Below are positions 2,107-20,828 of a stretch of DNA of 64,000 bases, one piece after another. Source of the DNA: Rubrivivax sp. (lineage in GTDB: Bacteria; Pseudomonadota; Gammaproteobacteria; Burkholderiales; Burkholderiaceae_C). The stretch is from assembly GCA_022843905.1 (NCBI GenBank), contig JALHMT010000029.1, positions 1 to 64,000 on the forward strand, read 5' to 3'. Position 1 is the first letter of the stretch. The number at the start of each line of letters is the position of its first letter. The translations under genes and the position numbers were made by a program. The notes under the pieces are model-generated. The model made no database searches and was not told where the DNA came from. It was given only the letters and a program-made list of their open reading frames with translations.

Positions 2107-4052
2107 TGGCTGAGTTCTATCTCGACACCAGCGCCATCGGTAACGAATACCAGGCATATACCGATACCCCGACCACATGGGCAGTGCCACAGGATGGCAA
2201 CGGCAAGGCTGGGCCAGGGCATGCAGCTGCCGTAGCGGTCGCAGAGGTCACATTCGCAGCGATCCCGACAACGGGTGCCTGTTCGGTGATGGGTACTACG
2301 GTGACGCTCACCGGTGTGCTCAGCGCTGCCAGCACCGATGCGGCAGCGACGGGTCTGGCGTCATCGATCAATACCACGGCGACAGCTACGGGAGCTGCTG
2401 TGTGCGCGGCCCTGTTGCCGCTGAATCGGTTCGTGTACGCCCGCGTCAAGCCGGGTGGCGGGGCCAACAACTCGATCGTGCAGATCATGTCCCGCTTTGC
2501 TGGGGCAGACCTCAACTACAACGCTGGGGCGAATACCAGCGCTCGGGTCACGAACACGTTCAACAACACGGCGATGACAAGCCCAGTGGATTTTGCTGGT
2601 GGGGCCGATGGCCCCTTTGCATACCTGAACGCTCCCATTGCGTCCTTTGGAAAGAACCTGTCCCTATGGGGAATGTGGACGAGCAATAAGGCGGGCACTC
2701 CAACTGACCCCGGCGCAGCCACAGACATCATCCACGTCCGCACGAAGCGAACCTCCAACTTGACGGTGTCATTCACCGTCTCGTCGGGGGGCTTTGCCAT
2801 CACGACTCCCGCCAGTACCCATCGCAACTTCTTGTTCGACGATGGGACGATCTGGAGCGGAGAGGACGGGCAGCTGCAGTTCAACCCCACATCGAATGGT
2901 GTATTTAGCAGCATGAATGCGGCAACTGCCAACTTCACGCTGCGAGTGGCCGCCCGCAAGAAGTACGGGTTGAAGATCACCTATACCGCCAACTCCACGA
3001 CGTACCACTTGATGCTCGGGAACGGGGCGCTCCTATTCACTGCCCTAGAGAATGTGCAGTTCGCGGAGGGGAGTTCAACAACACGGATTTTTGTCTACAC
3101 GGGCGGATCAAGTACAAACATCAGCTTCAAAGGCTGCAAATTTGACTATGCGGTGTCGCACACAATGCTTAGCAACTCGGGCATTACCAGTGCTGACTAC
3201 GCATCGTTTTACCGCTGGGATGACTGCGAGTTCACATGGACGGGGGTCGGCACCAACGTCACCGGTCTGTTTGCTGTTTCAAACCCCGCGTCGGTGGGGA
3301 CCGTGAGTCTGATGTGGTCGAAGTGCCGGTTTATTGTCGACTCCGGCAATTACAAGGTCACCGCTCCTGTTACGAATGGGTCGCTCTGGGGCTATGGTGC
3401 GCAACTGCAGGTCACGTTTGAACAATGCAGTGGGATGTCTGATTGCAGCGTTGGGGTAGCCGCTGCCGTTTACCCCCCGGCTGGCTTCTTCTTGTGGGAG
3501 TCCCCGGACTCCGACCGGCAGTTCCGCTACGAGTGCTCCAACTACATCATCGACTGGTTGGGGTCGTCGGTCCACCCGTACTACAACGCCACGCTCCCCA
3601 GCGGCAATGCCGCCTGCCACCGGATCGCCTGGGAGACTGCACGGATGCCATCCCTGCGTCCGGTGAAGGTGGGTAAGTACGCGGCCTTTCATCGGTCTGC
3701 CACTGCAGCACGAACGATCACGCTGGAGGTGCTCGCCCCGACTGCTGAGATCCCATCTACATCGCAGTGCTTCATGGTGGTCAAGTACATCAGTGGCGGG
3801 GCGGTTGTCGTCGAGAGCACGGCCAAACCGTATGCGCTTGAAGCCGCTGGCCTGGCTACCGACATGGTTGCCGGGGTGGGCACCGGAAGCTGGACGCTCA
3901 ACGGACTTACAGGGGCGTCGTCAGTCAAGCTCACCCTGACCACAGCCAGCAGCGTCGACATCAACACGATGATCACGGCTGACCTGTACCTGCAAGGCCC
4001 GCCAGCGAGCAACCGTTCGATCTACGTCAACCCTGATCTGCAGGTGACCTGA
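2106..4052 (+). CDS. Probable tail spike or tail appendage protein
   Basis: The product has 648 residues with no signal peptide. The N-terminal 130 residues are rich in Ala, Thr and Val, like an attachment domain. Between about residues 310 and 460 there are repeated short beta rungs that end in F/W-x-x-C-x-F (SFKGCKF, WDDCEF, WSKCRF, FEQCSG), which suggests a right-handed beta-helix of the pectate-lyase type, as in tail spikes. The C-terminus is beta-rich (RTITLEVLAP, SVKLTLTTASSVD). The gene looks poorer in GC than its neighbours, typical of host-range genes that are exchanged between phages. I see no catalytic residues of a known depolymerase. Confidence 0.65.
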   Translation: MAEFYLDTSAIGNEYQAYTDTPTTWAVPQDGNGKAGPGHAAAVAVAEVTFAAIPTTGACSVMGTTVTLTGVLSAASTDAAATGLASSINTTATATGAAVCAALLPLNRFVYARVKPGGGANNSIVQIMSRFAGADLNYNAGANTSARVTNTFNNTAMTSPVDFAGGADGPFAYLNAPIASFGKNLSLWGMWTSNKAGTPTDPGAATDIIHVRTKRTSNLTVSFTVSSGGFAITTPASTHRNFLFDDGTIWSGEDGQLQFNPTSNGVFSSMNAATANFTLRVAARKKYGLKITYTANSTTYHLMLGNGALLFTALENVQFAEGSSTTRIFVYTGGSSTNISFKGCKFDYAVSHTMLSNSGITSADYASFYRWDDCEFTWTGVGTNVTGLFAVSNPASVGTVSLMWSKCRFIVDSGNYKVTAPVTNGSLWGYGAQLQVTFEQCSGMSDCSVGVAAAVYPPAGFFLWESPDSDRQFRYECSNYIIDWLGSSVHPYYNATLPSGNAACHRIAWETARMPSLRPVKVGKYAAFHRSATAARTITLEVLAPTAEIPSTSQCFMVVKYISGGAVVVESTAKPYALEAAGLATDMVAGVGTGSWTLNGLTGASSVKLTLTTASSVDINTMITADLYLQGPPASNRSIYVNPDLQVT

Positions 4053-4488: not shown

Positions 4489-6126
4489 ATGCCGATCAGC
4501 GCAGACTTCACGATCGACTACACCAACCGCCGCATCACGCATTCGTCTGGCACGACGCGGTACTCGGTCAACGCCCTCTACAGCTACTTCGCCGACCTGA
4601 TCGACGACGCGGCGCAGATGGACGACACCGTGCCGATGAGCGCGCAGACGCCCGTCGAGTACAGCCTGATCAATGGCTGGTTCATGGACGACGCGAGTTT
4701 CGGCTACCTCACCGGCGGCTCGATCCAGACCGTGGGATGGGATGCTGCGACCTACACCAACGGCGTCTACCTGCTGACGATGCAGGCCGGCGGCTACACC
4801 AACGCGGTGGCCGGCGACATCGGCAAGACCGTCACCGATGGCACGCGCAGCGGCGTGCTGCTGGCCTACGACAACACCTTGCGCAAGTGGTGGGTACGCC
4901 GCGGCACGGCCACGGCCTGGGCGGGAGCCTGCACCATCACCACCGGCACCGGCGCGGGCACGATCACCGGCAGCGTGACCACCGGTGAGGATGTGTGGGG
5001 CAACTTCTACAACCTGGGCACGCTCAAGACAGGCAGCGTGCTCTACATCGAGCAGGGCGGGGCGCTGATCGCTTCGCCACCAGGCTACACCGCGGATGCT
5101 ATGGACGTGCTGGTGCGCGTGCGGCAGTCCAGCACCGACATCAGCAGCCGCAACGTCAGCCTGTTCAGCCGCAACCTGGGCGACGACTACGACTGCTTTA
5201 CCGCGACGGCGACGGCCAGCGGTGGCCGCAACCCGGTGCCGATCTCGACAAAGACCGACACCAACGACAGCAGCGGCACGGCCAGCGACGGCGGCATCAC
5301 GATCACCGTGGGCACCACGAGCCAGGACATCGGCGATGGGGCTGGAGCCCAGAACTACGACGTGCTGATCGACGGCAACGGCATGACCGTGGCCAACGTC
5401 TACAAGGCCATCAAGTACCGCACCAGGCGCCAGAACACCGCCGCGATCGGGAGTGGCAGCTCGGTGCTGGGACAGTTCTACCGCACTGCTAACGGCAGCT
5501 ACGCCGAGGTCAAGAACAGCCCGTTCGGCTTCCAGGCCGGCGCGACCTTCTTCGGCGCCCGGGGCGTCTACCTGACCAACGTCAGCGACCCGAACAACCG
5601 CAGCCTGATCGATGCCGCCGGCAACGTGCGCACCCCCCCGGTCTCCATAACGGTCACGGTGTCGGGCGTGGTCAGCGGCGACCGCGTGCTGGTGGCCCGC
5701 AGCGCGGCCGGCGTCATCAACAAAAGCCAGTTCACGCTCAACGGCACGCACACCGCGGCGACCACCATCGTCGTCAACGAGACCGTGGGCAACGACATCC
5801 CGACATCCGGCGTGATCCGGGTCGGTGACACGCGCTTTACCTACGGCGGCCTGAATCGCGGAACCAAGACCTTCAGCACCCTGTCGGCAGCCGTGACCGC
5901 GGCGTCAGGCAGCGGGGCTTACGTGCCGCTGATCGACGACGTGGCGGCCGGCGCGACGATCGCCAGCCCGGCCATGACCTACGTCGCGGACATCGACATC
6001 ATTGCCCGCGCTCGCAAGTACGGCGGGGCCGGAGCGTCGATCCTGCCCTTCGAGATCACCGGCACCGTGACCAACGCCGGCCTGACCGTCAGCGCCATCC
6101 GCACCGCCGACACCATCGTGACCTGA
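4489..6126 (+). CDS. Large beta-rich tail-associated protein
   Basis: The product has 545 residues and a good ribosome site (AGGAG) eight bases before ATG. The start FTIDYTNRRITHSSGTTRYSVNALYSYF is of a kind seen in virion proteins encoded beside phage fibres. The rest is Gly/Thr/Ser/Asn-rich beta structure with many short repeats such as TGTGAGTITGSVTTGED. The C-terminus contains two segments that look like beta-sandwich domains. A fibre or appendage role is likely from composition and neighbours; no enzymatic motif was found. Confidence 0.65.
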   Translation: MPISADFTIDYTNRRITHSSGTTRYSVNALYSYFADLIDDAAQMDDTVPMSAQTPVEYSLINGWFMDDASFGYLTGGSIQTVGWDAATYTNGVYLLTMQAGGYTNAVAGDIGKTVTDGTRSGVLLAYDNTLRKWWVRRGTATAWAGACTITTGTGAGTITGSVTTGEDVWGNFYNLGTLKTGSVLYIEQGGALIASPPGYTADAMDVLVRVRQSSTDISSRNVSLFSRNLGDDYDCFTATATASGGRNPVPISTKTDTNDSSGTASDGGITITVGTTSQDIGDGAGAQNYDVLIDGNGMTVANVYKAIKYRTRRQNTAAIGSGSSVLGQFYRTANGSYAEVKNSPFGFQAGATFFGARGVYLTNVSDPNNRSLIDAAGNVRTPPVSITVTVSGVVSGDRVLVARSAAGVINKSQFTLNGTHTAATTIVVNETVGNDIPTSGVIRVGDTRFTYGGLNRGTKTFSTLSAAVTAASGSGAYVPLIDDVAAGATIASPAMTYVADIDIIARARKYGGAGASILPFEITGTVTNAGLTVSAIRTADTIVT

Positions 6127-6846: not shown

Positions 6847-6860
6847 CCAGGAGATCACCC

Positions 6861-9800
6861 ATGGGATCGTTGTCTGCGTGCCTGAAGCAAGTCGGCAAGG
6901 CCGTGTCGAAGGAGGACCGCGACACCATCATCGCCAGGTCGGCCGTGCTGCGCGATGGCGGCATGGTCAAGGCCGAGGCAGACCTGCAGGCCACGCGCGA
7001 GCTGTTCGGCCGGCTGCGTGACGAGTTCAAGGGCATGGAGGCGACGGCGGCCGACCCGGTGGGCGCTCCCGCACCGGCCGCAGCAGAACTGCCGCTTGAA
7101 TTGCCGCCAGGAGACTACCGGCCCAGCGGGACTTTCGAGTTCGATGGTCGGACGTGGCGCATACGCTCTGTTCTCCACACTGGCGCCGGCCTGGAGGCGT
7201 CAACGGTGTTCGACGGGAAGCCAGCGCGTACCGAGAAGTTCGCCATAGGGCAGGACAGCGCAGCGCAGCAAGAAGCCGAGCAGGCCGCAGCGAAGAAGGC
7301 CGAGGAAGAAGCGGCGCAGCAGCGCAAGGCCGCGATCGAGGCCCGCCGCACCGAGCGCGAAACCGAGCGCCGCGTGTTCCGCGAGTTCGTCAAGAACCCG
7401 GACATGGTCGGCCTCCCGCTGGAGAAGGTACGGCTGTTCGCCGAGGCGAGGCTGCCAGACATGCCTGCGCCGCGCCGCGACATCCTGGCCAGGGCCATCC
7501 ACAAGGAACTGGCCGAGAAGGCTGTCGAGCTGGCCAAGCAGAAGAACCGTGACCCGGCCGTCAAGGCAGCGGCCGTGTCGGCCGCCATCGCCGACAAGTT
7601 CCCGGACGGCCTGCAGCCCGATCACGCGGCGGCGGTGCACGCCGGCTTCGACCACGCGCTGGCCGGCAAGACCAAGAGCACGCTTTCAGGCGAGTTCCTT
7701 CTGCGCATGAACATTGGCTACGACGCCGCGCAGGCCTGGATGAAGACCGAGGAGGGCGCGGCCTGGTACGAGGGCCGCCCGGTCAACAAGCTGCAGAACA
7801 CCGGCCTGGACCTGCGCCGCTGGTACGAGCAGATGCGCGAGCAGATGAAGGCCGGCGAGTCCGACATCAAGAAGGCCTGGAAGCAGATCGATCGCGCGAC
7901 GAACCGCGCTGACCTGTTCGCCCCACTGCTGCCGGACGGGGTGACGCCGGGCTTCCGGCTGTACGTCACCGAGGTGCGCGACCAGGTGCGGCCGTTCAAG
8001 GCCTGGCTCGACGACTCCTACCGCTGGGATGGTTCGATTCACAGCAAGTACGATGGCGACGACAAGAGCAACATCGACCTCATGCTGGAGGGCCGGCGCT
8101 ACCCGGACACCTACCAGCACAACGGCAAGACCATCACGCAGGAGGAGGCCGATTCCTTCTCCTCAGACGAGGCGTATCGCGCGCAGTGGCTGCGCGAGCG
8201 TGCACGCGAGTACATCGAGCAGGTGCGCGGCATCACGTCTGTTATCGAGGGCGCGTCATCGGTGGCCGAGGCCGCGCAGAAGTGGCACGAGCGCTTCATC
8301 CAGACGTTCAGCGACAAGCGCTGGAACCTCGATTCGTCGATGCTCACCCCTGGCGGGCAGGCGCTGGTGTCCAGCAGGAACGGCATCGACGCCTGGACCG
8401 GCGAAACCTCGGACGTGATGGGGCTCAGCCACCAGTCGGCCTGGACCAAGAACCTGATCGACAACGAGAAGACCGTCGCGCTGCCCGACAGGGCCACCCC
8501 GCTGGTGCCCCCGCGCCTGGACCGTGTCTCGCGCGATGGCGGTACCGACTACCGCAAGGGCGAGAACGTCACGCCCGAGCAGTTCAAGGCCACGTTCGGC
8601 ATGGCCGATGTGGGCTTCGGCACCTGGGTCGGCGCCAAGGAGGACCAGGACCACCTGAACTACAGCTTCGACGCGCTCAGCGACCTGGCCAAGCACTTCG
8701 GCACCGACGCCAAGAACCTGGGCTTCGGCGGGGCCATGCACTTCACCATCGGCGCGCTGGGCCACGGCAAGCACGCGGCGCACTTCAGCCCGAACCAGCC
8801 AAGCCCGATCGGCCCGGTGCAGGTGATCAACGTCACCAACACCAAGGGCGACGGCACGGTCTATCACGAGTGGGCGCACGCGCTGGATCACTTCATGGGT
8901 GGCCAGTGGAAGTCGCTGGTGCGTCGCCGGCTGCTGGAGATCCTGCAGCACGGCGTATTGACGCCCGAGCAGGTCGAGGCCCGTGCGCGCCAGTTCCTCA
9001 CCGGCGGCTGGTACTTCAAGGGCGACAAGAACGGGGACAAGGTCGGAGCGGCCCTGCGCGGCTTCGGCCGCTGGGACCGCCCACAGTCGGCCTACAAGAC
9101 CAATGCCGACCAGCTCGGCAAGGACTACTGGGGCAACGAGAAGGAGCTGATCGCGCGCGCGGCCGAGGCATGGGCCTACGACACGCTGCCGCACGCCAGC
9201 ACCTACCTGGTGAACGCCTGGGTGGCTGACGGCAAGGTCACGCAGGCCGCCGGCTACCGCGGCACCCCGTACCCCACCGGGCAGGAGCGCAAGGAGTTCA
9301 ACCTGGTGATGGGCGCGCTGGCCAAGGCGACTAAGTGGGAGAACGGCCGCCCGACCGTGAGCCTGGACGCCTTCAATGCGGCGCTGCCCGACGAGGTCAA
9401 GGCCGGCGAGCGCCGGATGGCCGAGCTCGGCAAGCGCGAGGCCATGCAGGCCTACTACGACCGGCTGCTTGCCGAGAAGGCCGACAAGGCTGCGGCCGAC
9501 GCGCAGGCCAAGGCTGACGCAGCCGCGGCCGAGCAGCAGCGCCTGGACGAACTGGCCGAGCAGAAGCTGAAGGATCTGCAGCCGCCGCCGGTGGTCGACG
9601 CCCCGCCGCCGTCGAGCGCGCAGGGCCCGCTGTCGGACCAGGAACTTTCGGACCTGTTCGACCAGGCCGCGGCCGAGGTGCGCGAGGAATCGCAGGAGAA
9701 GCCCGAGGAGCCGCCGCCCGGCGAGCCGGAGGAGGACCGCGACCGCTGGACGGCCGAGGACTGGGCCGCGATCCACCGGCTGCTGGCCAAGGGCACGCCG

Positions 9801-12800
9801 GTGCTGCTGGCCGAGGACGGCCACGGCATTCCGACCATCCACGAGTTCGGCCGCACCGGCCAGACCGACATGGTCGGCTACGGCGTGTTCAAGACCGTGG
9901 GCGACGGCTGGACGGCAAGCTGGGAGGGCGGCAGTGCAATGGACCGCACGCCCAGCGGCAAGGCGTACACCACGGTGCAGTTCACCGGTGGCGCGGTGCC
10001 GGCGGCAGCCTACAACCTGCAGGCAGCGGCTGATGCGGCGCTGGCGAACCGGCGCGCGGCAGAAACGCCGGCCGCCGGCCAGAAGCAGGCACCAGCCGTC
10101 ATCGCCAACTTCAAGACCGCACGCGAGCTCGATGCGTGGCTGGCGCAGGAGGTGGGCGATCAGTACCAACTGGCCAGGGAGACGCCAAAGGGCAAGCTCA
10201 AGGACCAGGGCGTCAAGCTGCTGGTGCTCGACCCCGGCAAGCAGGTCTTCAACGGCCCGACCAGCACCAGCGGTGCAACGACGGTCGGCGCCGATGTCAG
10301 CCTCGTCTACCATTTGATCGACGGGCGCCTGGTGTGGTGGGACCACAAGACCGGCAACGTGAACACGGTCGACCCGGCCGACCCGAGGCTGGAGGCCAAC
10401 CCGGACTACGACGAGTTCGTGCCGTCTCCCGCTGGCGCCGACACCGAGGGCACCATCCTTCCCGAGTGGGCTGTCCGAATCGTCAGCCAGCACGACAAGG
10501 TTGATTTCAGGTTCGAGGGCGACCAGTTCGTGGCGCTGTTCGACGGGCAAGAGGTCGGCCGCATGGAGGCAGCAGCCGCTCGCAAGGGCGGCTTCATGTC
10601 GCGCGCCTTCCTCGAAAACGCGATCCTCGATGCAGTCCTGAAGTCCCTGGGCGTCGACCGCGTGTCGGCCGACGCCGGCACAGTCGACAACGGCCCAGCC
10701 CAACGGGCCAAGAAAGAGGCCGAGGACGACCGGCGCCACCGCGCCAGGACCGCCCTGCGCGACGCTCTCGAAAAGGCGAGGGCGGCAGGGGCCACTCAGG
10801 TCGTCGGCACGATCCAAAGCATGATCTCCGGCGTCGGACATGGCGTGGGGCCAAAGCAGGCCTTCGAATACGCCGAGAACGTCGACCGCGCCATCCAACG
10901 CGAACTGGACAAGAAGGAAAGCGAACAGGCAGACAAGACCGCCCGCGACCTGATCGCCGAAGCTGCCAAGCTCGGCGTGAAAGGCGCCGACCAGGCCCTG
11001 GCCGGCCTGGCCAAGCTGTTCGGCAGCAAGGCGGGCCGGCTCAACTCGTTCCCGGCCGGCTTCGACGAGGAGGCCTACAACGAGGCCAAGCCGCTTTTCA
11101 AGGACGCGCTCAAGTCGTTCCAGGAGGCGGGGAAGACCCTCAAAGACCTGTTCAAGCTGCTGATCCAGCAACTGGGCGACGGCATCAAGCCCTACGCCAT
11201 GCAGTTCGCCAAGGACGAGGCGCTGGGCAACAACCTGGAGCAGCAGGCCGCCGCAGCGCCGGCCGGCTCGCCGTCGATTGCCCTGGCGCGCGACATCGAG
11301 CGCTACCTGCTGCACACGGCCGCGCCGATGGACTGGCGCACCCTGTTCAACATGGCCGATCGCCACTTCGGCGGCACGCAGGCCGAGGGCAAGTACACCC
11401 CGAAGGACGCATACGACGCGCTCGAAGCGGCCATCAACCTGCGCATCCTGCGCTCGCCGTCGCTGTTCAGCCCGGCCGTGACCGAGGAGGACGCGCAGCT
11501 CGCGGTAGGCACGCTCACCAGGCTGCTGGAGAAGGTGCCCACGCAGACCAAGCGCACGGCAGAGCAGGATCGGCTGCAGCAGTTCAGCACCGTCCCGCCG
11601 CTGGCCTTCGTGGCGAACTGGGTGGCCAACGTGCGGCCGACCGACGTGATGCTCGAACCCTCGGCGGGCCTGGGTGGCCTGGCCGTGTTCTCGCGCCTGG
11701 CCGGCGCCCGGGTGGTGCTCAACGAATGGAACGCGCGCCGGGCCGACCTGCTGCAGCAGGTGATGCCGGATGCCCGGGTGTTCCGCGAGGACGCCCAGTA
11801 CCTGCACAACATCCTGCCCGACGATGTGCGGCCGACCGTCGTGATCATGAACCCGCCGTTCAGCAACTCCATCGGCGGCGTGAAGGACACCATGGTCGGT
11901 GCCCAGCACGTCGAGCAGGCGCTGGAGCGGCTGCCGCAGGGTGGCCGACTGGTGGCCATCGTCGGCGAAGGCATGGCCATGGACAAGCCGGCCTTCCGCG
12001 ACTGGTGGAAGAAGATCGGTGCCAAGTACGACGTGCGCGCGGCCGTGCCCATGGACGGCTCGGGCTATGCCAAGTACGGCACCACGTTCGACAACGTGAT
12101 CCTGGTCATCGACAAGGTGGCTCCGAGCGGCAGGAAGCCCGTCACCACGAAGATGACGGACTACACTGATCTCGTCCACCTGCTTGCAGAGGTGCGCAAT
12201 GGCAGACCCGAACATGAACTTCCAGTCACGGATCACAGCGCTGAACCAGACCCCCGAGGGGGAACTGGCGACGCTGCTGCTGCAGGGGACGCCCCAGCAG
12301 CCGACACCGGACCGGCTGGCCCTGGCGGTGCTGCTGGAGTGGGCACTGGACAACCTGGCGGCAAAACCGGGGTGGGCCGAGGCGGTTCGTCAGGCGGCCG
12401 GTCTGGCCGAGGATCGAAATCCCGAGGCGATGCAGGCCGCGATCCTGCCGGCGGGGCTGATGCAGGCACGAACGCTGACGGAAGCGGGCAAGCTGATGCT
12501 GCAGCAGGTGGTCGACCTGATTCCACCGGGGACCAGTCCGGCGTACCCGTTGGTTCGAACACGGCTGTAGCCGGCGAGATGACCGATTCGGTCTTCGAGG
12601 GCTATCAGCCGCAGCGTCTGCAGATTCCCGGCGCCAAGCCGCACCCGGGCCCGTTGGTGCAGTCGTCGGCCATGGCGTCGGTGCTGCCGCCGGCACCGAC
12701 CTACACGCCCAACCTGCCCAAGGAAACGATCGAGAAGGGCCTGGTGTCGATCGCGCAGATCGAGGCCGTGGTCTACGCCGGGCAGTCGCACCAGCAACTG

Positions 12801-15800
12801 CTGGAAACCAAGGTCGGCGACACCGAGGCGCGCGACTACGGGCTGAAGGCGGGCACGCCCTACCGTCGCGGGTTCTTCATCGGCGACGGTACCGGGGTCG
12901 GCAAGGGCCGCGAGATCGGCGCCATCCTGCTGGACAACATCCGCCAGGGTCGCAAGAAGCACGTCTGGGTCAGCGAGAAGCAGGGCCTGATGAACGACGC
13001 GGCGCGCGACTTCGCCGGCATCCAGGACGGGGTGACGGCCGAGAGCGTGCTCAAGTCCAAGGGCATCTTCAACCTTGGCGACACCAAGGCCGCGGGGTCG
13101 GTGAGCCAGGCCGAAGGGGTGCTGTTCACCACCTACGCCACGCTGCGCAGCGAGGCCAAGGACAAGGAGCCGGGCGGGTTCAAGAAGGGCGACGAGGTGC
13201 AGGTCGGCCGCGCGTTCGGCCCGCCGGGCAGCCCCGACTTCGACAACACCAAGCTGGTGAAGATCGACAAGAAGAAGAACACCGTCACCGTGGAGTGGGC
13301 TGGTGGTCGCGTCATCGAGCACCCGTTTGCGCAGATTCTCAGCATTGCTGGCGACTCCGCGTGGACGAACACCCTGCGCGACGGCGCCAGGAAGCCCAAG
13401 ACCCGCGTCGACCAGATCGTGGAATGGCTGGGCCCCGACTTCGACGGCGTGATCGCCTTCGACGAGGCGCACAACGCCGGCAACGCGGTGCCCATCAAGG
13501 GCTCGCGCGGCGACAGCGAGCCATCGGCGCAGGCCCTGGCCGTGGTCGAGCTGCAGCGGCGCCTGCCTGGCGCCCGGGTGGTCTACGTGTCGGCCACCGG
13601 CGCCACTGAGGTGAGCAACCTGTCCTTCGCCAACCGGCTGGGGATCTGGGGCCCGAGCACGCCTTTCGCCAGCGTCAACGAGTTCATCAGCCAGATGACG
13701 GCCGGCGGCCTGGCCACCATGGAACTGGTGGCGCGCGACCTCAAGCAGACCGGCGCCTACATGGCCCGCAGCCTGAGCTATGACGGGGTGAACTACTCGC
13801 GCATCGACCACGAGCTCAACCCGCTGCAGCACGACATCTACAACCGGCTGACCGACGCCTGGCAGGTGGTGCTGAACAACATCGAGGAGGCCCTGAAAGC
13901 CATCGGTGCGGTCACCGACTCAGGCAAGGTCAAGAACAGCAAGGCCAAGTCCAACGCGATGTCGGCCTTCTGGGGTGCACAGCAGCGGTTTTTCAACCAG
14001 ATCATCACCAGCATGCAGATGCCATCGGTGATCGACGCGGTCGAGGCCGACATTGCCCGCGGCGACGCGGTGGTGCTGCAACTGGTCAACACCAACGAGG
14101 CGCAGCAGGAGCGCGCCCTGGCCAAGCGGCAGGAGGAAGGCGAGGAATCCGACCTCGAAGACCTGGACCTGACCCCGCGCGACCAGCTCATCGACATGGT
14201 GCGCAAGTCGTTCCCGGTGCAGCAGTTCCAGGACGTGATCGGCGACGATGGAAAGCGCACGACCGTGCCCTTGACCGACTCCAACGGTGACCCGGTGCTG
14301 AACAAGGCCGCGGTGGCCATGCGCGACAAGCTGATCGAGGATCTGCAGCAGATCAGCGTCCCGGACGGCCCGCTGGAGATTCTGGTCAACCACTTCGGGC
14401 CCGAGATCGTGGCCGAAGTGACGGGCCGCAAGCAGCGCGTGGTGGCCGGGCGCTGGAACAAGAACCACAGGGGCGACGGCGAGCCCAAGGCGTTCACCGA
14501 CAAGCGCGGACCAGCCTCCGCGCGCGCGGATGCCGACGCCTTCATGGCCGACAAGAAGCGCGTGCTGATCTTCAGCGATGCCGGCGGCACCGGCTTCAGC
14601 TTTCACGCCGACCTGAAGAAGGTCAACCAGCGCAAGCGGCAGCACTACCTGGTGCAGCCGGGCTGGCGCGCGAACAAGGCCGTGCAGGGCCTGGGCCGCA
14701 CGCACCGCACCAACCAGAAGTCGGCGCCGCACTACAAGCTGGTGGCGACGAACATCCCGGCGCACAAGCGGTTCCTGTCGTCGATCGCCCGCCGGCTGGA
14801 CCAGCTCGGCGCCCTGACCAAGGGCCAGCGCGACACCAGCAGCGGCGGCCTGTTCAGCGAGAAGGACAACCTGGAGAGCAAGTACGCCGAGCGCGCGGTG
14901 CGGGCGTTCCTGTTCGACGCGAAGGCCGGGCAGATCGAGGGCCTGGACTTCAACGACCTGCTGCAACAGCTCGGCCTGAAGGACATGGTGAACAAGGACA
15001 CCAACCAGATCACCGAGTCGAAGATCCCCGAGGTGCGGCAGTTCCTCAACCGGCTGCTGTCGCTCAAGCTGGAAACCCAGGAACTGGTGTTCCACGGCTT
15101 CATCAGCCGCATGGAGGAAATCATCGAGCAGGCCGCCGAGCGCGGCGAGCTCGACACCGGCATGCAGACCATCCGGGCGCTGGAGTCCAGGGTCACGCAC
15201 GAGGAAATTGTCTTTACCGAGGAGCGCACCGGCGCGGAAACCTCCTACGTCGAGCTCGAACTGACGCACCCGACGCGCATGCACTCGTTCCCCGAGGAAA
15301 AGGCGCAGGGCGCCAAGATCGAGTGGATCGTCAACGCGCAGAGCGGCCGGGTGTGGGGCCGCGTGCGCAGCGGCAACCAGACGCTGAAGAACGGCGCGGT
15401 GGTCGAGCGCTACCGCATGCTGGGCACCGGCGGCATGGCCTTCCGCACCGAAGAAGACTTCAGGAACAAGGCGGCCTGGAAGACGATCACTGAGGACGAG
15501 GCCCGCCTGAAGTGGGACCAGGAAACCGCCAAGAAGCCCCCGACCTACACCACCAAGACCCACATGATCGTCGGCGCCATGCTGCCGATCTGGGACCGGC
15601 TCAAGACCGAGGGCACGATGCAGGTGGCGCGCACGCAGACCAGCGACGGCCGCCGGCTGCTGGGCCGCGTGATCCACGAGAGCGACGTGGCCGAACTGCG
15701 CAAGCGGCTGAACATCGCTGCGCCCGAGAGCAAGCTGCCGCCGGCCGACGTGCTGGCCCGGGTGCTCAAGGGCGAGACGGCCGAACTGGCCAACGGCTGG

Positions 15801-18800
15801 AAGCTGGAGCGCGCCCGCGTGTCCGACGACCTGCGCGTCGAGATCAAGGGCCTGCCGTCGAACGTCGGCCCGGCGCTGCGCCGCGAACTGCTCGACGCTG
15901 GCGTGATCGAGGAGCGCATCCAGTGGAACACGCGGTACTTCATGCCGGTTAACAAGCCCGAGGTGCTGGGCGCCGTCATCAAGAGCCGCCCGGTGGTTGG
16001 CCTGGCCAAGCCGGCCGACCAGCCCAAGCTCAAGCAGGGCCTCGCTGGCGCTGGCGTGCCGGTCGACGAGCTGCGAAGCCTGGTCGCCAAGGTGGCGGCG
16101 AACTGGTCAGGCGTCGATGCCTACGTGGTGCCCACGATCGACGACCTGCCGGCAAACATCCGGGCATCGCTGTTCAACCAGGGTGCGCTCGGCGACGTCC
16201 GCGGCCTGATGGTGCCGAACGGCAGCGTCTACCTGATCGCCAACCGCATGCCGTCGCTCGACGAGGCGCAGGGCATCCTGTTCCACGAGGTCTACGGCCA
16301 CGTCGGCATGCGCGCCTTCCTGGGCGACGAGTACGCAGCGCAGATGCAGCTGCTGCGCATGGCCAACCCGACCCTGGCGGCCGAGGCAAACGCCTGGTAC
16401 GCCAACTACTCCCGCGGGCACATCGGCGCCCGGGTGCAGCGCGGCATGAGCCGCCTGGACGCCGAGGCCGAGGTGCGCCTGCTGGCGGTCGAGGAGGCCC
16501 TGGCCGACCGGGCCGGCAACGCGCCGCCGCCCAGCGGCTGGAAGGCGCTGATGGCCAAGCTGCAGCAGGCGCTGCGCCGCCTGGGCCTGGGCTGGGTGGC
16601 CGACAAGCTCGAAAGCATGACCGAGGCCGAGACGCACGCGCTGCTGATGAACGCGCGCCGGGCCGTGACTCGCACCGGTGGGCCGATGCACGTGCTGGCC
16701 GGGATGCCTGCCGGCCTGCAGGATCCCGCGAACTCGGCCGTGGCGCCGATATGGACCAGCGCGCTGCTGGCCGAGGTGAGCAAGGCCCCGATGAAGGCCG
16801 GCGACGCCACGGCCTGGACCCAGTACCTGGATGCCATGGTCAAGCGCGGAGCGGTGAAGGCCGACGAGATCGAATGGACCGGGCTGCGCGAGTGGCTGGC
16901 CTTGCAGGCAGACGGGGCGAAGGGAGCCGCAGCCGTGGAGGCTGCCGAAGGCGCTGACAGCCCGTTCACTCAACTGTGGAAGTCGACCAACCCCGCCAAG
17001 ATCACGCGCGAGGCGGTGGCCCAGTACCTGAGCTCCAACGGGGTGCTGGTGAAAGACGTGGTGCTGCGTGACGCGCGCACTCTCGTTTCCGACCTGAACG
17101 AAAAGTTCGTGGACTACGGTTACTCGGTCGACTACGACAACATCGACGACGAGGCCGTTTTCTACAACGAAGACGGGGATCTGGTCGACTTCATCGACTT
17201 GCCTGCAGAGCTGCAGGATCTTGTCGACAGGCACAGCGATGCGACTGTCTTTGGAAGGACGCGGTACGGCCAATACACCCTGCCAGGCGGCACCAACTAC
17301 CGCGAGGTGCTGCTGACGCTGCCGGCCAAGGACACGATCACCACGAAGCGCGTGGCCGCGCCCAACGGCTGGGGCGACACCGATGGCGGCAACGTCGGCA
17401 TCGAGCGCACTGGCGACACCCGGGCCGACTACCGCAGCGGCCACTGGGACCAGGCAAACGTGCTGGCCCACATCCGCCTGAACGACCGCATGGCCGACCG
17501 CCCTGGCGTTGACTTGAACGAGATCGGCGAGCGCATCAGGCAGGCCATCGACACCCGGGAGCAGGCATTCCGGCAGTGGTTCGGCGACAGCCAGATCACC
17601 TACCCGGACGGCAAGCCGCGCGTGATGTACCACGGCACCGGGGCCGACATCTACGAGTTCCGCGGCAAGCAGGCCGGCGCGATCTTCGTGACGCCGGAGC
17701 CGATCGTGGCGCAGGCCTACGCCGGCTCCTCGGTCAACTGGCTTGACCGCAACGGCATGGTCGGCGGCCAGTCGGTGATGCCGCTGTACGTGCGCGCCGA
17801 AGACCCGTTCGACTTCGAGAATGCTGACCACGTGGATGCGCTGGTGGATCGCGCTTTCGAGCGCATCAACACCTACACCCAGGGCGACGGTGAGCAGGCG
17901 CTGCTGGACGGTGAGGAGCAGACCCTCTACACGCGCGACGTGCTGCGCTATGCCCTGACCGAGGGCCAGTGGTCCCTGATCGAGAACCCGGAGATTCAGG
18001 CGGCCATCAAGTCGCTCGGGCACGACGGCTTCTACGTCAGCGAAGACGGCTTCAAGAACCTCGCCGTCTACCAGGCCAACCAGCTCAAGAGCGCCATCGG
18101 CAACCGAGGCACCTACGACCTGGGAAGCGACAACATCCTGCTGAGCCAGCCCCCCGTCGACCCGGTGCTCGAATCCGCCAAGCGCAAGGCAGGCCTGCGC
18201 GGGCCGCGCACGCTGGGCGACAAGGTGCGGGCCTTCTACGGCCGCGCGCTCGAATCGGTGCGCAGCCGCGAGGTGATCGGCCAGACCCTGCGCCAGGAGG
18301 TGCTCGACCAGTTCTACGGCATCCTGCGCGCCGAGCGGGCCGAGCTGGGCGCGCTGCCGGCCGAGCAGAGCCTGTACGTCACGGCCAGGCTGGCCAACGG
18401 CGGCACGAGCTCGGTGATGCGCGGCCTGATGCTGCACGGCCAGGCCCGCTGGGGCAGCACGCAGCAGCACCTGGAGAAGGTGCCCGACAGCAAGGGCCTG
18501 CTGGACATCCTCAAGCCGCTGGGCAACGACATGAACGACTGGTTCGGCTGGATGGTCGGCAACCGGGCGGCGCGGCTGCTGACCGAGGGCCGCGAGAACA
18601 ACCTGACGGCCGACGAGATCAAGGCGCTGCAGGGCCTGGCCGACACGCCGGACAAGGAAATCCTGTTCCGGCGCGTGTCGCTGGAGTACGCAGCCTTCAA
18701 GCGCAGCGTGCTCGACGTGGCGCAGGAGGCCGGGCTGATCAACCCCGAGTCGCGCCGGGTGTGGGACCACGCCGACTACATCCCCTTCTACCGCGAGATC

Positions 18801-20828
18801 GACGAGAAGTCGCTGTTCAGCCCGACCGGCAAGAAGGGCCTGGCCGGGCAGTCTTCGGGCATCCGCCAGCTCAAGGGCGGCGAGTCCGAGCTCAACGACC
18901 CGATGGAGAACCTGCTGATGAACTTCAGCCGGCTCATCGACGCCAGCCTGAAGAACAACGCGATCAAGCAGACGATCGAGGCCCTGGGAGAAACCGACCT
19001 GGTGCAGAAGGTCGGCTACAGCATGACGCCGGCCATCATCCCGCGAAAGCAGATCGTGGAGGAACTGGTGCGCGCCGGCACGCCCGAGAGCATCATCGCC
19101 ACGCTGCCCGACGAGGTGTTCGAAGGCATGGCCAAGATGTGGGCCATCCAGGCGCCGACCGATCCCGACGTGGTGCGCATCATGGTCGGTGGCAAGCCGC
19201 AGTTCTACCGGGTCAACGACCGGCTGCTGCTGAAGGCGCTGACGAGCTTCGTGCCGTTCGACTTCCCGGGGCTGGAACTGGCCCGCGGCGCCAAGCGGCT
19301 GCTGACCTCGATGGTCACGAGCACGCCCGAGTTCATGATCAGGAACTGGGTGCGTGACTCGATGGCCGCGCAGGCGATCACGCAGACGCCGTTCAACCCG
19401 CTGGAGTCTGTCAAGGGCATCCGCCGGGCCTACAAGGAAAGCGGCGGCTACGAGGCGATGTTGTTCGCTGGCGCGAGCTTCCAGTCTGGGCACGTGAACG
19501 CTGGCGATCCTGGCGGCACGGCCGTGCACATGCGTCGCGCGCTGCGCGAGCGGGGTTTCCGGGCAGCCGCATCCGAGGCCGGCGCCTGGCAGGCGACCAA
19601 GGACTGGACGGCCAGGCGCTGGGAGTCCTACCGCCAGATCGGCGAGGCCATCGAGAACGCCAACCGGGAAGCGGTGTACGAGGCGGCCGTCAAGGCCGGC
19701 AAGTCGGCGACCGAGGCGGCCTACGAGGCCAAGGATCTGATGGACTTCAGCCTGCGCGGTAGCGCTGCGGCCTACCAGCTGCTGGCCGACGTGCTGCCGT
19801 TCTTCAACGCCCGGGTGCAGGGCCTGTACCGGCTGGGCCGGGCCGACCGGGCCCGGCTGATGAAGATGGGTGCCATCATGATCACGGCCACCGCGCTGCT
19901 GGCCCTGGCCAACGGTGGCGAGGACTGGTACGAGCAGCTGCCCGACTGGGACAAGGACACCTACTGGCACTTCAAGATCGGGGGCGCGCACTTCCGGGTG
20001 CCCAAGCCGTTCGAGATCGGGGTTCTGTTCGCCACGCTGCCTGAGCGCATCGGCCGCGGTCTGCTGGGCCTGGACAGCGGCAAGAAGACGCTCAATCGCG
20101 TGTGGGCCAACGTGCGCGACCAGCTCGCCTTCGACCCGATGCCGCAACTGGTGCGCCCGGTGGTGGATGCGTGGGCCAACAAAGACACCTTCCGCGACCG
20201 GCCGATCGAGGGCATGGCCGACGAGGGCATGCGCCCGCACGCCAGGTCGGACGCGCGCACGTCTGACACCATGCGCGTGCTGGCCGAGTCGGCCGCGCCG
20301 GTGGCCGACTGGCTGGAGCTGGGGCCAAAGAAGATGGAGTTCCTGGTCAACGGCTACCTTGGCACCGTGGGCATGTACGCCCTGTCCGTGTCCGACGCGG
20401 TGATCCGCACGCTCGAAGGCAAGCCAGACCGGCCCGCCGTGCGCGCCGACGACCTGCCCATCATCCGGACCTTCTACCAGGAGGACCCGGCGCGGGCGAC
20501 GGTCTTCGAAAGCGACGTCTACAAGATGCGCAAGGAGGTCGAGGCCGTCATGCGCGAAGTGATGACCGCGGCCAAGAGCGCCGACCCCGGCAAGCAGCAG
20601 AAGGCGCGCGACCTGATGGCCGAGGAGGCCGACAAGATCAAGGTGCGCGGCCTGGTGTCAGGTGCAGCGCAGGGCCTGAGCGTGCTCAACCAGCAAATCA
20701 GCAAGGTCTACTCCGACCCGAAGATGACGCCGGACGAGAAGCGGGCCAAGGTCGACGCGCTGCAGCAGAAGAAGAACGACATCGCCCGGAAGGCGGCCAC
20801 CGACCCGAAGGTGCGCGAGGCGTTCTAG
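6861..20828 (+). CDS. Giant polyvalent protein: metallopeptidase, N6-adenine methylase, strawberry-notch helicase, ART-like and LPD38-like domains
   Basis: The product has 4,655 residues; ATG has AGGAG nine bases upstream. In order: a helical Ala/Glu coiled coil (about 130-175); a zincin-like HEWAH at 669-673; an N6-adenine methylase with EPSAGLGG at 1599 and NPPF at 1664-1667; a Gly/Ala/Asp linker 1780-1904 overlapped by another gene; a strawberry-notch-type SF2 helicase with Walker A GDGTGVGKG at 2008, DEAH at 2201 and GLGRTHR near 2610; a second metal-site motif HEVYGH at 3142; an ADP-ribosyltransferase-like domain from YHGT (3590) to NQLKSAIGN; and an LPD38-like C-terminus with PHARSDARTSDTMR near 4455 and one hydrophobic segment near 4340. 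Known polyvalent proteins such as P1 DarB enter the cell with the phage DNA and block restriction. The same role is likely here but inferred. Confidence 0.85.
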   Translation: MGSLSACLKQVGKAVSKEDRDTIIARSAVLRDGGMVKAEADLQATRELFGRLRDEFKGMEATAADPVGAPAPAAAELPLELPPGDYRPSGTFEFDGRTWRIRSVLHTGAGLEASTVFDGKPARTEKFAIGQDSAAQQEAEQAAAKKAEEEAAQQRKAAIEARRTERETERRVFREFVKNPDMVGLPLEKVRLFAEARLPDMPAPRRDILARAIHKELAEKAVELAKQKNRDPAVKAAAVSAAIADKFPDGLQPDHAAAVHAGFDHALAGKTKSTLSGEFLLRMNIGYDAAQAWMKTEEGAAWYEGRPVNKLQNTGLDLRRWYEQMREQMKAGESDIKKAWKQIDRATNRADLFAPLLPDGVTPGFRLYVTEVRDQVRPFKAWLDDSYRWDGSIHSKYDGDDKSNIDLMLEGRRYPDTYQHNGKTITQEEADSFSSDEAYRAQWLRERAREYIEQVRGITSVIEGASSVAEAAQKWHERFIQTFSDKRWNLDSSMLTPGGQALVSSRNGIDAWTGETSDVMGLSHQSAWTKNLIDNEKTVALPDRATPLVPPRLDRVSRDGGTDYRKGENVTPEQFKATFGMADVGFGTWVGAKEDQDHLNYSFDALSDLAKHFGTDAKNLGFGGAMHFTIGALGHGKHAAHFSPNQPSPIGPVQVINVTNTKGDGTVYHEWAHALDHFMGGQWKSLVRRRLLEILQHGVLTPEQVEARARQFLTGGWYFKGDKNGDKVGAALRGFGRWDRPQSAYKTNADQLGKDYWGNEKELIARAAEAWAYDTLPHASTYLVNAWVADGKVTQAAGYRGTPYPTGQERKEFNLVMGALAKATKWENGRPTVSLDAFNAALPDEVKAGERRMAELGKREAMQAYYDRLLAEKADKAAADAQAKADAAAAEQQRLDELAEQKLKDLQPPPVVDAPPPSSAQGPLSDQELSDLFDQAAAEVREESQEKPEEPPPGEPEEDRDRWTAEDWAAIHRLLAKGTPVLLAEDGHGIPTIHEFGRTGQTDMVGYGVFKTVGDGWTASWEGGSAMDRTPSGKAYTTVQFTGGAVPAAAYNLQAAADAALANRRAAETPAAGQKQAPAVIANFKTARELDAWLAQEVGDQYQLARETPKGKLKDQGVKLLVLDPGKQVFNGPTSTSGATTVGADVSLVYHLIDGRLVWWDHKTGNVNTVDPADPRLEANPDYDEFVPSPAGADTEGTILPEWAVRIVSQHDKVDFRFEGDQFVALFDGQEVGRMEAAAARKGGFMSRAFLENAILDAVLKSLGVDRVSADAGTVDNGPAQRAKKEAEDDRRHRARTALRDALEKARAAGATQVVGTIQSMISGVGHGVGPKQAFEYAENVDRAIQRELDKKESEQADKTARDLIAEAAKLGVKGADQALAGLAKLFGSKAGRLNSFPAGFDEEAYNEAKPLFKDALKSFQEAGKTLKDLFKLLIQQLGDGIKPYAMQFAKDEALGNNLEQQAAAAPAGSPSIALARDIERYLLHTAAPMDWRTLFNMADRHFGGTQAEGKYTPKDAYDALEAAINLRILRSPSLFSPAVTEEDAQLAVGTLTRLLEKVPTQTKRTAEQDRLQQFSTVPPLAFVANWVANVRPTDVMLEPSAGLGGLAVFSRLAGARVVLNEWNARRADLLQQVMPDARVFREDAQYLHNILPDDVRPTVVIMNPPFSNSIGGVKDTMVGAQHVEQALERLPQGGRLVAIVGEGMAMDKPAFRDWWKKIGAKYDVRAAVPMDGSGYAKYGTTFDNVILVIDKVAPSGRKPVTTKMTDYTDLVHLLAEVRNGRPEHELPVTDHSAEPDPRGGTGDAAAAGDAPAADTGPAGPGGAAGVGTGQPGGKTGVGRGGSSGGRSGRGSKSRGDAGRDPAGGADAGTNADGSGQADAAAGGRPDSTGDQSGVPVGSNTAVAGEMTDSVFEGYQPQRLQIPGAKPHPGPLVQSSAMASVLPPAPTYTPNLPKETIEKGLVSIAQIEAVVYAGQSHQQLLETKVGDTEARDYGLKAGTPYRRGFFIGDGTGVGKGREIGAILLDNIRQGRKKHVWVSEKQGLMNDAARDFAGIQDGVTAESVLKSKGIFNLGDTKAAGSVSQAEGVLFTTYATLRSEAKDKEPGGFKKGDEVQVGRAFGPPGSPDFDNTKLVKIDKKKNTVTVEWAGGRVIEHPFAQILSIAGDSAWTNTLRDGARKPKTRVDQIVEWLGPDFDGVIAFDEAHNAGNAVPIKGSRGDSEPSAQALAVVELQRRLPGARVVYVSATGATEVSNLSFANRLGIWGPSTPFASVNEFISQMTAGGLATMELVARDLKQTGAYMARSLSYDGVNYSRIDHELNPLQHDIYNRLTDAWQVVLNNIEEALKAIGAVTDSGKVKNSKAKSNAMSAFWGAQQRFFNQIITSMQMPSVIDAVEADIARGDAVVLQLVNTNEAQQERALAKRQEEGEESDLEDLDLTPRDQLIDMVRKSFPVQQFQDVIGDDGKRTTVPLTDSNGDPVLNKAAVAMRDKLIEDLQQISVPDGPLEILVNHFGPEIVAEVTGRKQRVVAGRWNKNHRGDGEPKAFTDKRGPASARADADAFMADKKRVLIFSDAGGTGFSFHADLKKVNQRKRQHYLVQPGWRANKAVQGLGRTHRTNQKSAPHYKLVATNIPAHKRFLSSIARRLDQLGALTKGQRDTSSGGLFSEKDNLESKYAERAVRAFLFDAKAGQIEGLDFNDLLQQLGLKDMVNKDTNQITESKIPEVRQFLNRLLSLKLETQELVFHGFISRMEEIIEQAAERGELDTGMQTIRALESRVTHEEIVFTEERTGAETSYVELELTHPTRMHSFPEEKAQGAKIEWIVNAQSGRVWGRVRSGNQTLKNGAVVERYRMLGTGGMAFRTEEDFRNKAAWKTITEDEARLKWDQETAKKPPTYTTKTHMIVGAMLPIWDRLKTEGTMQVARTQTSDGRRLLGRVIHESDVAELRKRLNIAAPESKLPPADVLARVLKGETAELANGWKLERARVSDDLRVEIKGLPSNVGPALRRELLDAGVIEERIQWNTRYFMPVNKPEVLGAVIKSRPVVGLAKPADQPKLKQGLAGAGVPVDELRSLVAKVAANWSGVDAYVVPTIDDLPANIRASLFNQGALGDVRGLMVPNGSVYLIANRMPSLDEAQGILFHEVYGHVGMRAFLGDEYAAQMQLLRMANPTLAAEANAWYANYSRGHIGARVQRGMSRLDAEAEVRLLAVEEALADRAGNAPPPSGWKALMAKLQQALRRLGLGWVADKLESMTEAETHALLMNARRAVTRTGGPMHVLAGMPAGLQDPANSAVAPIWTSALLAEVSKAPMKAGDATAWTQYLDAMVKRGAVKADEIEWTGLREWLALQADGAKGAAAVEAAEGADSPFTQLWKSTNPAKITREAVAQYLSSNGVLVKDVVLRDARTLVSDLNEKFVDYGYSVDYDNIDDEAVFYNEDGDLVDFIDLPAELQDLVDRHSDATVFGRTRYGQYTLPGGTNYREVLLTLPAKDTITTKRVAAPNGWGDTDGGNVGIERTGDTRADYRSGHWDQANVLAHIRLNDRMADRPGVDLNEIGERIRQAIDTREQAFRQWFGDSQITYPDGKPRVMYHGTGADIYEFRGKQAGAIFVTPEPIVAQAYAGSSVNWLDRNGMVGGQSVMPLYVRAEDPFDFENADHVDALVDRAFERINTYTQGDGEQALLDGEEQTLYTRDVLRYALTEGQWSLIENPEIQAAIKSLGHDGFYVSEDGFKNLAVYQANQLKSAIGNRGTYDLGSDNILLSQPPVDPVLESAKRKAGLRGPRTLGDKVRAFYGRALESVRSREVIGQTLRQEVLDQFYGILRAERAELGALPAEQSLYVTARLANGGTSSVMRGLMLHGQARWGSTQQHLEKVPDSKGLLDILKPLGNDMNDWFGWMVGNRAARLLTEGRENNLTADEIKALQGLADTPDKEILFRRVSLEYAAFKRSVLDVAQEAGLINPESRRVWDHADYIPFYREIDEKSLFSPTGKKGLAGQSSGIRQLKGGESELNDPMENLLMNFSRLIDASLKNNAIKQTIEALGETDLVQKVGYSMTPAIIPRKQIVEELVRAGTPESIIATLPDEVFEGMAKMWAIQAPTDPDVVRIMVGGKPQFYRVNDRLLLKALTSFVPFDFPGLELARGAKRLLTSMVTSTPEFMIRNWVRDSMAAQAITQTPFNPLESVKGIRRAYKESGGYEAMLFAGASFQSGHVNAGDPGGTAVHMRRALRERGFRAAASEAGAWQATKDWTARRWESYRQIGEAIENANREAVYEAAVKAGKSATEAAYEAKDLMDFSLRGSAAAYQLLADVLPFFNARVQGLYRLGRADRARLMKMGAIMITATALLALANGGEDWYEQLPDWDKDTYWHFKIGGAHFRVPKPFEIGVLFATLPERIGRGLLGLDSGKKTLNRVWANVRDQLAFDPMPQLVRPVVDAWANKDTFRDRPIEGMADEGMRPHARSDARTSDTMRVLAESAAPVADWLELGPKKMEFLVNGYLGTVGMYALSVSDAVIRTLEGKPDRPAVRADDLPIIRTFYQEDPARATVFESDVYKMRKEVEAVMREVMTAAKSADPGKQQKARDLMAEEADKIKVRGLVSGAAQGLSVLNQQISKVYSDPKMTPDEKRAKVDALQQKKNDIARKAATDPKVREAF
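12199..12570 (+). CDS. Overprinted small gene inside the giant polyvalent gene
   Basis: This ORF encodes 123 residues starting MADPNMNFQSRITALN, in the frame one base ahead of the giant gene. AGAGG lies six bases before the ATG. Codon use is that of a real gene here: runs of CTG, CAG, GAG and GCC and nearly all third bases G or C. The giant frame over the same bases has mixed third positions and encodes only Gly/Ala/Asp/Arg/Pro low complexity. The product is helical with a balanced composition (ALAVLLEWALDNLAAKPG; KLMLQQVVDLIPPG). I know no homologous family. It may act with the polyvalent protein, for example as a partner or a virion component; this is inference. Confidence 0.7.
   Translation: MADPNMNFQSRITALNQTPEGELATLLLQGTPQQPTPDRLALAVLLEWALDNLAAKPGWAEAVRQAAGLAEDRNPEAMQAAILPAGLMQARTLTEAGKLMLQQVVDLIPPGTSPAYPLVRTRL

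Follow-up and report, generated by a model that had tools for sequence, protein, structure and literature searches.

A probable nested gene in the methylase-helicase linker of giant polyvalent protein genes

In the account of polyvalent proteins by Iyer et al. 2017, the third most prevalent domain is a methylase that is nearly always fused to a helicase, and the helicase of this dyad has the Strawberry-notch form "in a few instances" (PMC5512222). The host gene analyzed here is alike, with a methylase-like part before a Strawberry-notch helicase and with LPD and ART domains; no nested gene was met in that account, and the words "overlapping" and "linker" occur 0 times in its main text (PMC5512222). 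The preliminary description of the present locus, which was made from its sequence, knew of no described gene inside a polyvalent protein gene. This is not strictly so, as phage P1 iddB is annotated wholly inside ddrB, a gene of the P1 Dar anti-restriction set, and is listed as nonessential and "internal to ddrB". It differs from our case in being antisense and in having another host gene, and the inner gene described here is not of this antisense-within-ddrB type.

We analyzed a 64,000-nucleotide stretch of a Rubrivivax sp. contig (hereafter, the window), which carries the phage gene families of terminase, portal, major head protein, and endolysin. Its giant polyvalent gene combines the Strawberry-notch helicase and the LPD/ART domains in one polypeptide (Table 1). 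The Pfam scan returned no methylase match in the giant, and the name methylase was taken from the annotation of homologues (methyltransferase/helicase). Between the methylase and the helicase, the giant frame had been described as a Gly/Ala/Asp linker, in agreement with a composition in which 89% of the residues are G, A, D, S, P, R, T, Q, or N. An ORF lies over this linker, wholly inside the open longer frame and on the same strand, and its coordinates, its 123 residues, and the AGAGG six bases before its ATG are all present as the preliminary description gave them. From sequence comparisons, we conclude that it is very probably a real nested gene in the +1 frame of the giant, with a separate product that would arise by internal initiation. 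Ribosomes would load at the internal Shine-Dalgarno on the giant mRNA, and a separate 123-residue protein, predicted to be helical, would be made alongside the giant.

Table 1. Positions of the features of the giant polyvalent gene and of the nested genes (plain numbers are positions in the window; L-numbers denote collected loci)
Feature	Position	Strand	Remarks
Giant polyvalent gene	6861..20828	+	4,655 aa, ~14 kb; open frame; Pfam LPD1, AAA_34, Helicase_C_4, ART-PolyVal, LPD38
Adenine-methylase-like part of the giant, left anchor	11541..12152 (approximate boundaries)	+	MNPPF motif; homologues' annotation
AGAGG, Shine-Dalgarno-like	12188..12192	+	6 nt before the inner ATG; within giant codons of the motif L..[IV]R[ND]
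Giant-frame linker over the nested gene	12198..12575	+	Gly/Ala/Asp/Pro/Ser-rich, poor codon fit; near-neutral in relatives
Nested +1-frame gene (probable)	12199..12570	+	123 aa; ATG 12199-12201, stop TAG 12568-12570; mildly acidic, predicted six-helix
Strawberry-notch-type helicase part of the giant	12576..15167	+	Profile anchor starts ~12,576; end = Helicase_C_4 match, residue 2769
Second nested family	L192 and L189 (Skulduggery): 3001-3387; L188, L190, L191, L193 start at 3001		+1 frame of the giant

The two frames differ sharply in composition over the inner ORF. Read in the inner frame, these bases have a third-position GC of 0.813; read in the giant frame, they have 0.476, and the remainder of the giant has 0.920. 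The difference (+1 minus giant) is +0.337 here and at most -0.008 in 441 windows elsewhere in the giant. The codon index relative to the rest of the giant is 0.448 for the inner frame, above the maximum of 0.392 among 221 +1 windows elsewhere, and 0.211 for the giant frame over the same bases, below the minimum of 0.485 found elsewhere in the giant. These values bear out both the GC-ending codon use of the inner frame and the degraded codon use of the giant frame that had been noted from the sequence. The inner ORF is also the sole +1 or +2 ATG ORF of at least 70 codons in the giant with a Shine-Dalgarno match of GGAG, GAGG, or longer. Its length is a different matter. If the +1 frame of a Gly/Ala/Asp linker were open anyway in GC-rich DNA, a long ORF could be present by chance and have no product, and in line with this, the ORF length is not significant by synonymous shuffling in the window (p 0.09, measured from an upstream TTG, 128 codons) or in many other loci. 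The shuffle test is weak locus by locus and was left out of the evidence; the inner ORF is beyond chance by its composition and conservation, not by its length.

A search of the 123-residue protein against 5.8 billion predicted proteins, which the preliminary description had proposed, returned 6 relatives (115-117 aa, 59-70% identity) on contigs of 0.5-3.9 kb. When a profile of 69 family members (see below) was used in a word-based search of the same 5.8 billion proteins, 18 relatives were found, those 6 included, all on contigs of at most 6.2 kb. The nearest relatives end about 8 residues earlier, at a conserved ...PGTSPA, and for this reason the last 8 residues of the window's inner protein (YPLVRTRL, 12544-12567) look like a local extension. 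When the window protein or a close profile was searched directly against DNA, viral contigs, genome contigs, plasmids, and phages all gave no match, a weak negative because two of these searches missed L003, a viral contig with a nested protein of 71% identity. As the protein-database relatives were so few, loci were gathered via the methylase-helicase region, 6 viral loci first and then at least 80 viral loci, at least 80 genome loci, and 5 plasmids. A long +1 ORF starts from the same place in 6/6 of the first viral loci, with flank identity down to 42%.

Three loci that repeat the window (L001, L002, and L009) were removed first, leaving 177 loci with the window included. The domain anchors were placed by profiles, regular expressions having missed 54 of 180 loci, and both domains were placed in 164 of the 177. 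Removal of the 13 loci without a placed domain pair, 5 repeats of L003-L007, and 4 loci with the two domains in different frames (L085, L125, L148, and L179) gave 155 same-frame loci, which formed 141 clusters after 14 near-duplicates were set aside. Loci from L180 upward were excluded from the cluster counts, and these counts refer to the matches listed. The giant frame is stop-free between the domain anchors in 153 of the 155 same-frame loci, and the two giant-frame stops (L015 and L115) sit in domain matches, outside the linker. In L015 (plasmid MEALZ_p of Methylotuvimicrobium alcaliphilum 20Z, with the nested gene at 8668-9009), the stop is at the start of the methylase match, an annotated helicase gene begins just past it, and the nested gene and the later giant frame are open.

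The linker is at least 370 nt long in 89 clusters and shorter in 52, with the cut of 370 nt chosen after the lengths had been seen. The preliminary description had considered that homologous phages might keep the linker open and lose the inner frame; instead, among the matches listed, 86 of the 89 long-linker clusters have a +1 ORF of at least 80 codons from a start near the methylase end, with the caveat that long linkers by themselves permit long ORFs. The three others (L080, L088, and L114) have a long linker without an inner ORF. The starts of the 86 inner ORFs are 80 ATG, 4 GTG, and 2 TTG, and a Shine-Dalgarno match precedes 77 (4-nt) or 61 (5-nt) of them, figures that are inflated by a start picking that favored both start type and Shine-Dalgarno. 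A total of 21 nested copies are on bacterial contigs titled gamma-, delta-, and alphaproteobacteria, clostridia, Bacteroidetes, and planctomycetes. Two contig scans for the host gene supplied 76 of the 86 nested copies among the matches listed, which, set against the 18 members in 5.8 billion predicted proteins, points to an annotation gap. In the short-linker group, 27 of 52 clusters have some +1 ORF of at least 80 codons, as a chance opening of this frame would predict; 22 of these ORFs lack a Shine-Dalgarno, and no match to the inner profile was found in the short-linker loci.

The inner ATG straddles a giant Asn or Asp codon that is followed by G. For the start tests, the site was located by the giant protein motif alone, by which 69 of the 89 long loci were scorable and 20 lacked the motif. 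The Asn/Asp codon is T-ending in 68 of the 69 sites, compared with 28.1 expected from each locus's own Asn/Asp usage, and the sole exception is L080, one of the loci without an inner ORF. The motif occurs in 1 of the 52 short-linker clusters, where the codon is C-ending. When the giant residues are kept and codons are sampled according to the usage of each locus, ATG is expected as the +1 codon at 25.9 of the 69 sites and is seen at 67, and a Shine-Dalgarno of at least 5 nt is found at 47 (18.5 expected) and of at least 4 nt at 59 (42.8 expected). These counts indicate that the ATG is strongly held beyond the giant protein's needs and the Shine-Dalgarno less so, with part of the latter signal supplied by the giant's own residues. 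A Shine-Dalgarno of at least 5 nt also precedes 58 of 80 inner ATGs and 214 of 5,707 other +1 ATGs in the same giants, a contrast that is overstated because the starts were picked partly by Shine-Dalgarno score. A start test giving log10 P -31.8 was discarded as biased, ATG starts having been preselected, and the motif-only tests were used instead.

Two other uses of this site were considered. Slowing of ribosomes at internal Shine-Dalgarno-like sites has been proposed, and the site in the window is located just past a domain, so a translational pause could let the methylase fold before the helicase, with the inner frame untranslated. A pause site could do without an ATG and would not call for purifying selection over more than 100 codons of the inner frame, and we regard this explanation as hardly credible. 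The inner frame could also be entered by ribosomes that shift by +1 while translating the giant, which would yield a fusion of the methylase and the inner protein, and in the window the inner frame is open for 14 codons upstream of the ATG. An in-frame stop is present within 1 codon before the start in 19 of the 86 loci and within 5 codons in 37; stops so close before the start therefore speak against a frameshift fusion, as does the conservation of the ATG itself (67/69), and we give this reading almost no weight.

To compare the two frames, the four classes of sites were separated in ten disjoint pairs of relatives. The inner frame has a dNN/dSN of 0.50 at sites nonsynonymous in the giant and a dNS/dSS of 0.39 at sites synonymous in the giant (only ~21 sites), and the corresponding values of the giant linker are 1.15 and 0.91, near neutral. 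In the four closest pairs, the values are 0.40 and 0.27 for the inner frame and 1.09 and 0.73 for the giant. Across 19 pairs, which share sequences, the amino acid identity of the inner protein exceeds that of the linker in all 19, and the inner third position changes most in 18, the exception being L046/L069, without a third-position excess. The clearest pair is L004/L005, with 4, 5, and 24 changes by inner position. The pair of the window and L003 is weaker than the pool, with 22, 21, and 30 changes and identities of 0.71 (inner) and 0.67 (linker). In a scan along the giants, the largest excess of first- over third-position changes falls on the nested gene in the window/L003 pair (9 at 12303-12542; next, 8 at 6849-7028), in L004/L005 (16; next region, 9), and in L006/L007 (12; no other region flagged).

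These substitution patterns indicate that the inner frame is under purifying selection and that the giant frame over the nested gene evolves almost neutrally, apart from staying open and linker-like. The preliminary description had placed the constraint on the inner gene and had suggested a comparison of rates in both frames, which came out in its favor, less clearly in the window's own pair. It had also called the inner gene overprinted. That term implies that the inner gene came second; the data fit either order of origin, and the giant-frame linker could just as well be the one that was overprinted. Giant first-position changes also equal or exceed third-position changes between relatives in other stretches (window 6849-7088, 15999-16361, and 17046-17387; L004:2745-3119), which could be loose linkers or more nested coding.

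Most of the inner proteins belong to one family. A profile iterated from the window protein recovered 69 of the 92 inner proteins and took in none of the decoys, which were 899 real ORFs from alternate frames and 1,840 shuffles. Members of this strict family are found in 63 of the 86 nested clusters, including loci of 39-40% GC (L107 and L102). The 23 inner proteins outside the strict family comprise a planctomycete set of five and many singles. In the planctomycete loci (L116, L117, L118, and L129, all with a start near 4674, and L119 with a start at 2198), an AGGAGG and an inner protein outside the strict family occur at the same place, and this protein may be a diverged or a replaced nested gene. 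The notion of a chance ORF does not account for the conserved start codon, the third-position pattern, the reversed dN/dS, or a single protein family that excludes the decoys and reaches into loci of such GC, and we consider it very improbable. The conserved ATG, the selection on the inner frame, the single family, and the upstream stops led us to reject the chance ORF, the pause site, and the frameshift fusion.

On a tree of the host domains with 134 of the 141 clusters, nested and non-nested states require 4 changes, compared with a mean of 42 and a minimum of 32 with shuffled labels. A total of 51 of the 54 clusters without the nested gene form one clade with a support of 0.992; several of the deeper nodes have low support. 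Nested proteins outside the strict family are mostly in mixed clades with members, and one clade of 8 stands apart. All 82 family matches among 22,826 six-frame pieces of all loci are at the linker position, and no copy of the nested gene was found outside the methylase-helicase linker among these pieces. Matches to the inner family are also present in L120, one of the 13 loci without a placed pair, whose contig ends before any placed helicase, and in L125, which has its domains in different frames. When 398 genomes of the phylum were searched with a profile, the hits were the window and one further genome, whose copy is again nested in +1 between the methylase and the helicase, an out-of-sample success for the family profile; a narrower profile returned only the window from 300 genomes of the order. 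The short-linker clade shows that the methylase-helicase dyad can exist without the nested gene.

The preliminary description had called the inner protein helical, and this agrees with the AlphaFold prediction (72 sequences), which gives six helices with a mean pLDDT of 82.2 and a pTM of 0.75, the C-terminal residues 110-119 being below 50. No fold or sequence relative of the inner protein was found, in searches that were weak and included DNA mimics. We tentatively suppose that this protein acts together with the methylase-helicase pair; coming from the same mRNA, it could be a subunit, a regulator, or a folding partner. Co-inheritance is the one line of evidence that links the product to the dyad, and a partner role is our first guess because the gene is found only with the dyad, whether the DNA is a viral contig or a conjugative plasmid.

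Two other roles come next as guesses. The nested gene could encode a free acidic DNA-mimic anti-restriction protein that blocks host enzymes in trans, like ArdA, Ocr, and ArdD. Acidic proteins prevail in the family (its median pI is 4.8, and 62 of the 69 members carry a net negative charge), the host gene resembles in kind that of DarB, described as an anti-restriction protein (PMC5512222), and ardD is an anti-restriction gene described inside another mobile-element gene (PMC3533173). The window's own protein, with 12 D+E and 9 K+R, is no more than mildly acidic, and it matched no known mimic in the searches, weak as these were, so we think such a role unlikely. Somewhat less likely again is a helper for delivery of the giant, either by packaging in the virion or by passage through the conjugation channel. 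A DarB-like giant is reported in virions of Burkholderia phage JC1 (PMC9144972), which can be set beside this phage by description only, and P1 Ulx is listed as aiding DarB localization (PMC9024508). Delivery of this kind fits poorly with the occurrence of the same family on a conjugative plasmid (L015) and on viral contigs, which use different channels.

A second nested family was detected in the giants of 6 isolated phages (8 records), namely Klebsiella phage ZX1, Serratia phage Parlo, Pseudomonas phage Skulduggery, Ruegeria phage 45A6, and Vibrio phages D274 and 1.232.O. Several of these giants are annotated as DarB-like, and only the giant is annotated at the nested site. The ORF is in the +1 frame, has 120-131 aa with an ATG and a Shine-Dalgarno match, and has 26 relatives among predicted proteins. 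It lies upstream of the methylase in 5/5 phages with the methylase located (Skulduggery apart). Between ZX1 and Parlo, there are 31, 29, and 57 differences by inner position, with identities of 0.64 (inner) and 0.47 (linker); the two Vibrio phages, which are nearly identical, have 7, 4, and 10 differences and identities of 0.91 (inner) and 0.92 (linker). A further member, on the viral contig L094, has an ATG without a preceding Shine-Dalgarno. The second family has no detectable relation to the first by hhalign (probability 0.3 percent).

Other giants gave mixed results. In that of Aeromonas phage phiARM81mr, a 64-codon +1 ORF with GAGGT and an ATG (L194:3557-3748) reads like a real helical protein and is perhaps a third nested gene. 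Vibrio phage 1F273_PE002 has a 71-codon +1 ORF with GAGG and a doubtful composition. No +1 or +2 ORF of at least 80 codons with GGAG, GAGG, or longer was found in P1 darB, and by the same length and Shine-Dalgarno thresholds no nested ORF was found in Bacteroides phage BS-TP4, which has both domain matches, or accepted in the Azospirillum and Geminicoccaceae plasmids. In L186 and L187, the ORFs are only outside the host gene or, in L187, a +2 ORF of 464 codons, which was discounted as a nested gene for its skewed composition. Vibrio phage 252E42.2 has no nested ORF of at least 60 codons, and its best Shine-Dalgarno is only AAGG. On the Azospirillum plasmid (L186:1-9404), the short-linker methylase-helicase gene adjoins type I-E cas genes and a phosphorothioated-DNA-binding restriction gene. 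With moderate confidence, we propose that polyvalent linkers are gene sites, and that at least two unrelated families of small helical proteins with their own +1 starts would be companions of the giant, in an anti-defense layer that gene callers discard.

A nested gene would explain the length, the low complexity, and the poor codon fit of the linker. It is conserved in position across many sequences of viruses, plasmids, and bacteria and is rare in protein databases, and as a missed companion of the Strawberry-notch branch of the dyad it is a candidate partner for a poorly understood machine. We recognized no paper describing it among those listed in searches of the open-licence PMC literature. 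Nested phage genes are known, and to our knowledge none is this widespread and conserved in the linker of polyvalent anti-defense genes. The product of Rz1 is the partner of the product of its host gene, Rz. The embedded class of Rz1 in tailed phages, as described for that class, resembles the present gene in being on the same strand, fully nested, and in another frame (PMC9144972). Rz1 and Rz differ in being lysis proteins encoded by a short gene, whereas the gene in the window lies within one of 14 kb and its product is predicted to be helical. ArdD of Tn5053, compared here by description only, likewise comes from a small gene nested in a mobile-element gene, tniA, and has anti-restriction activity; unlike the nested gene of the window, it is antisense and lies in a transposase gene (PMC3533173).
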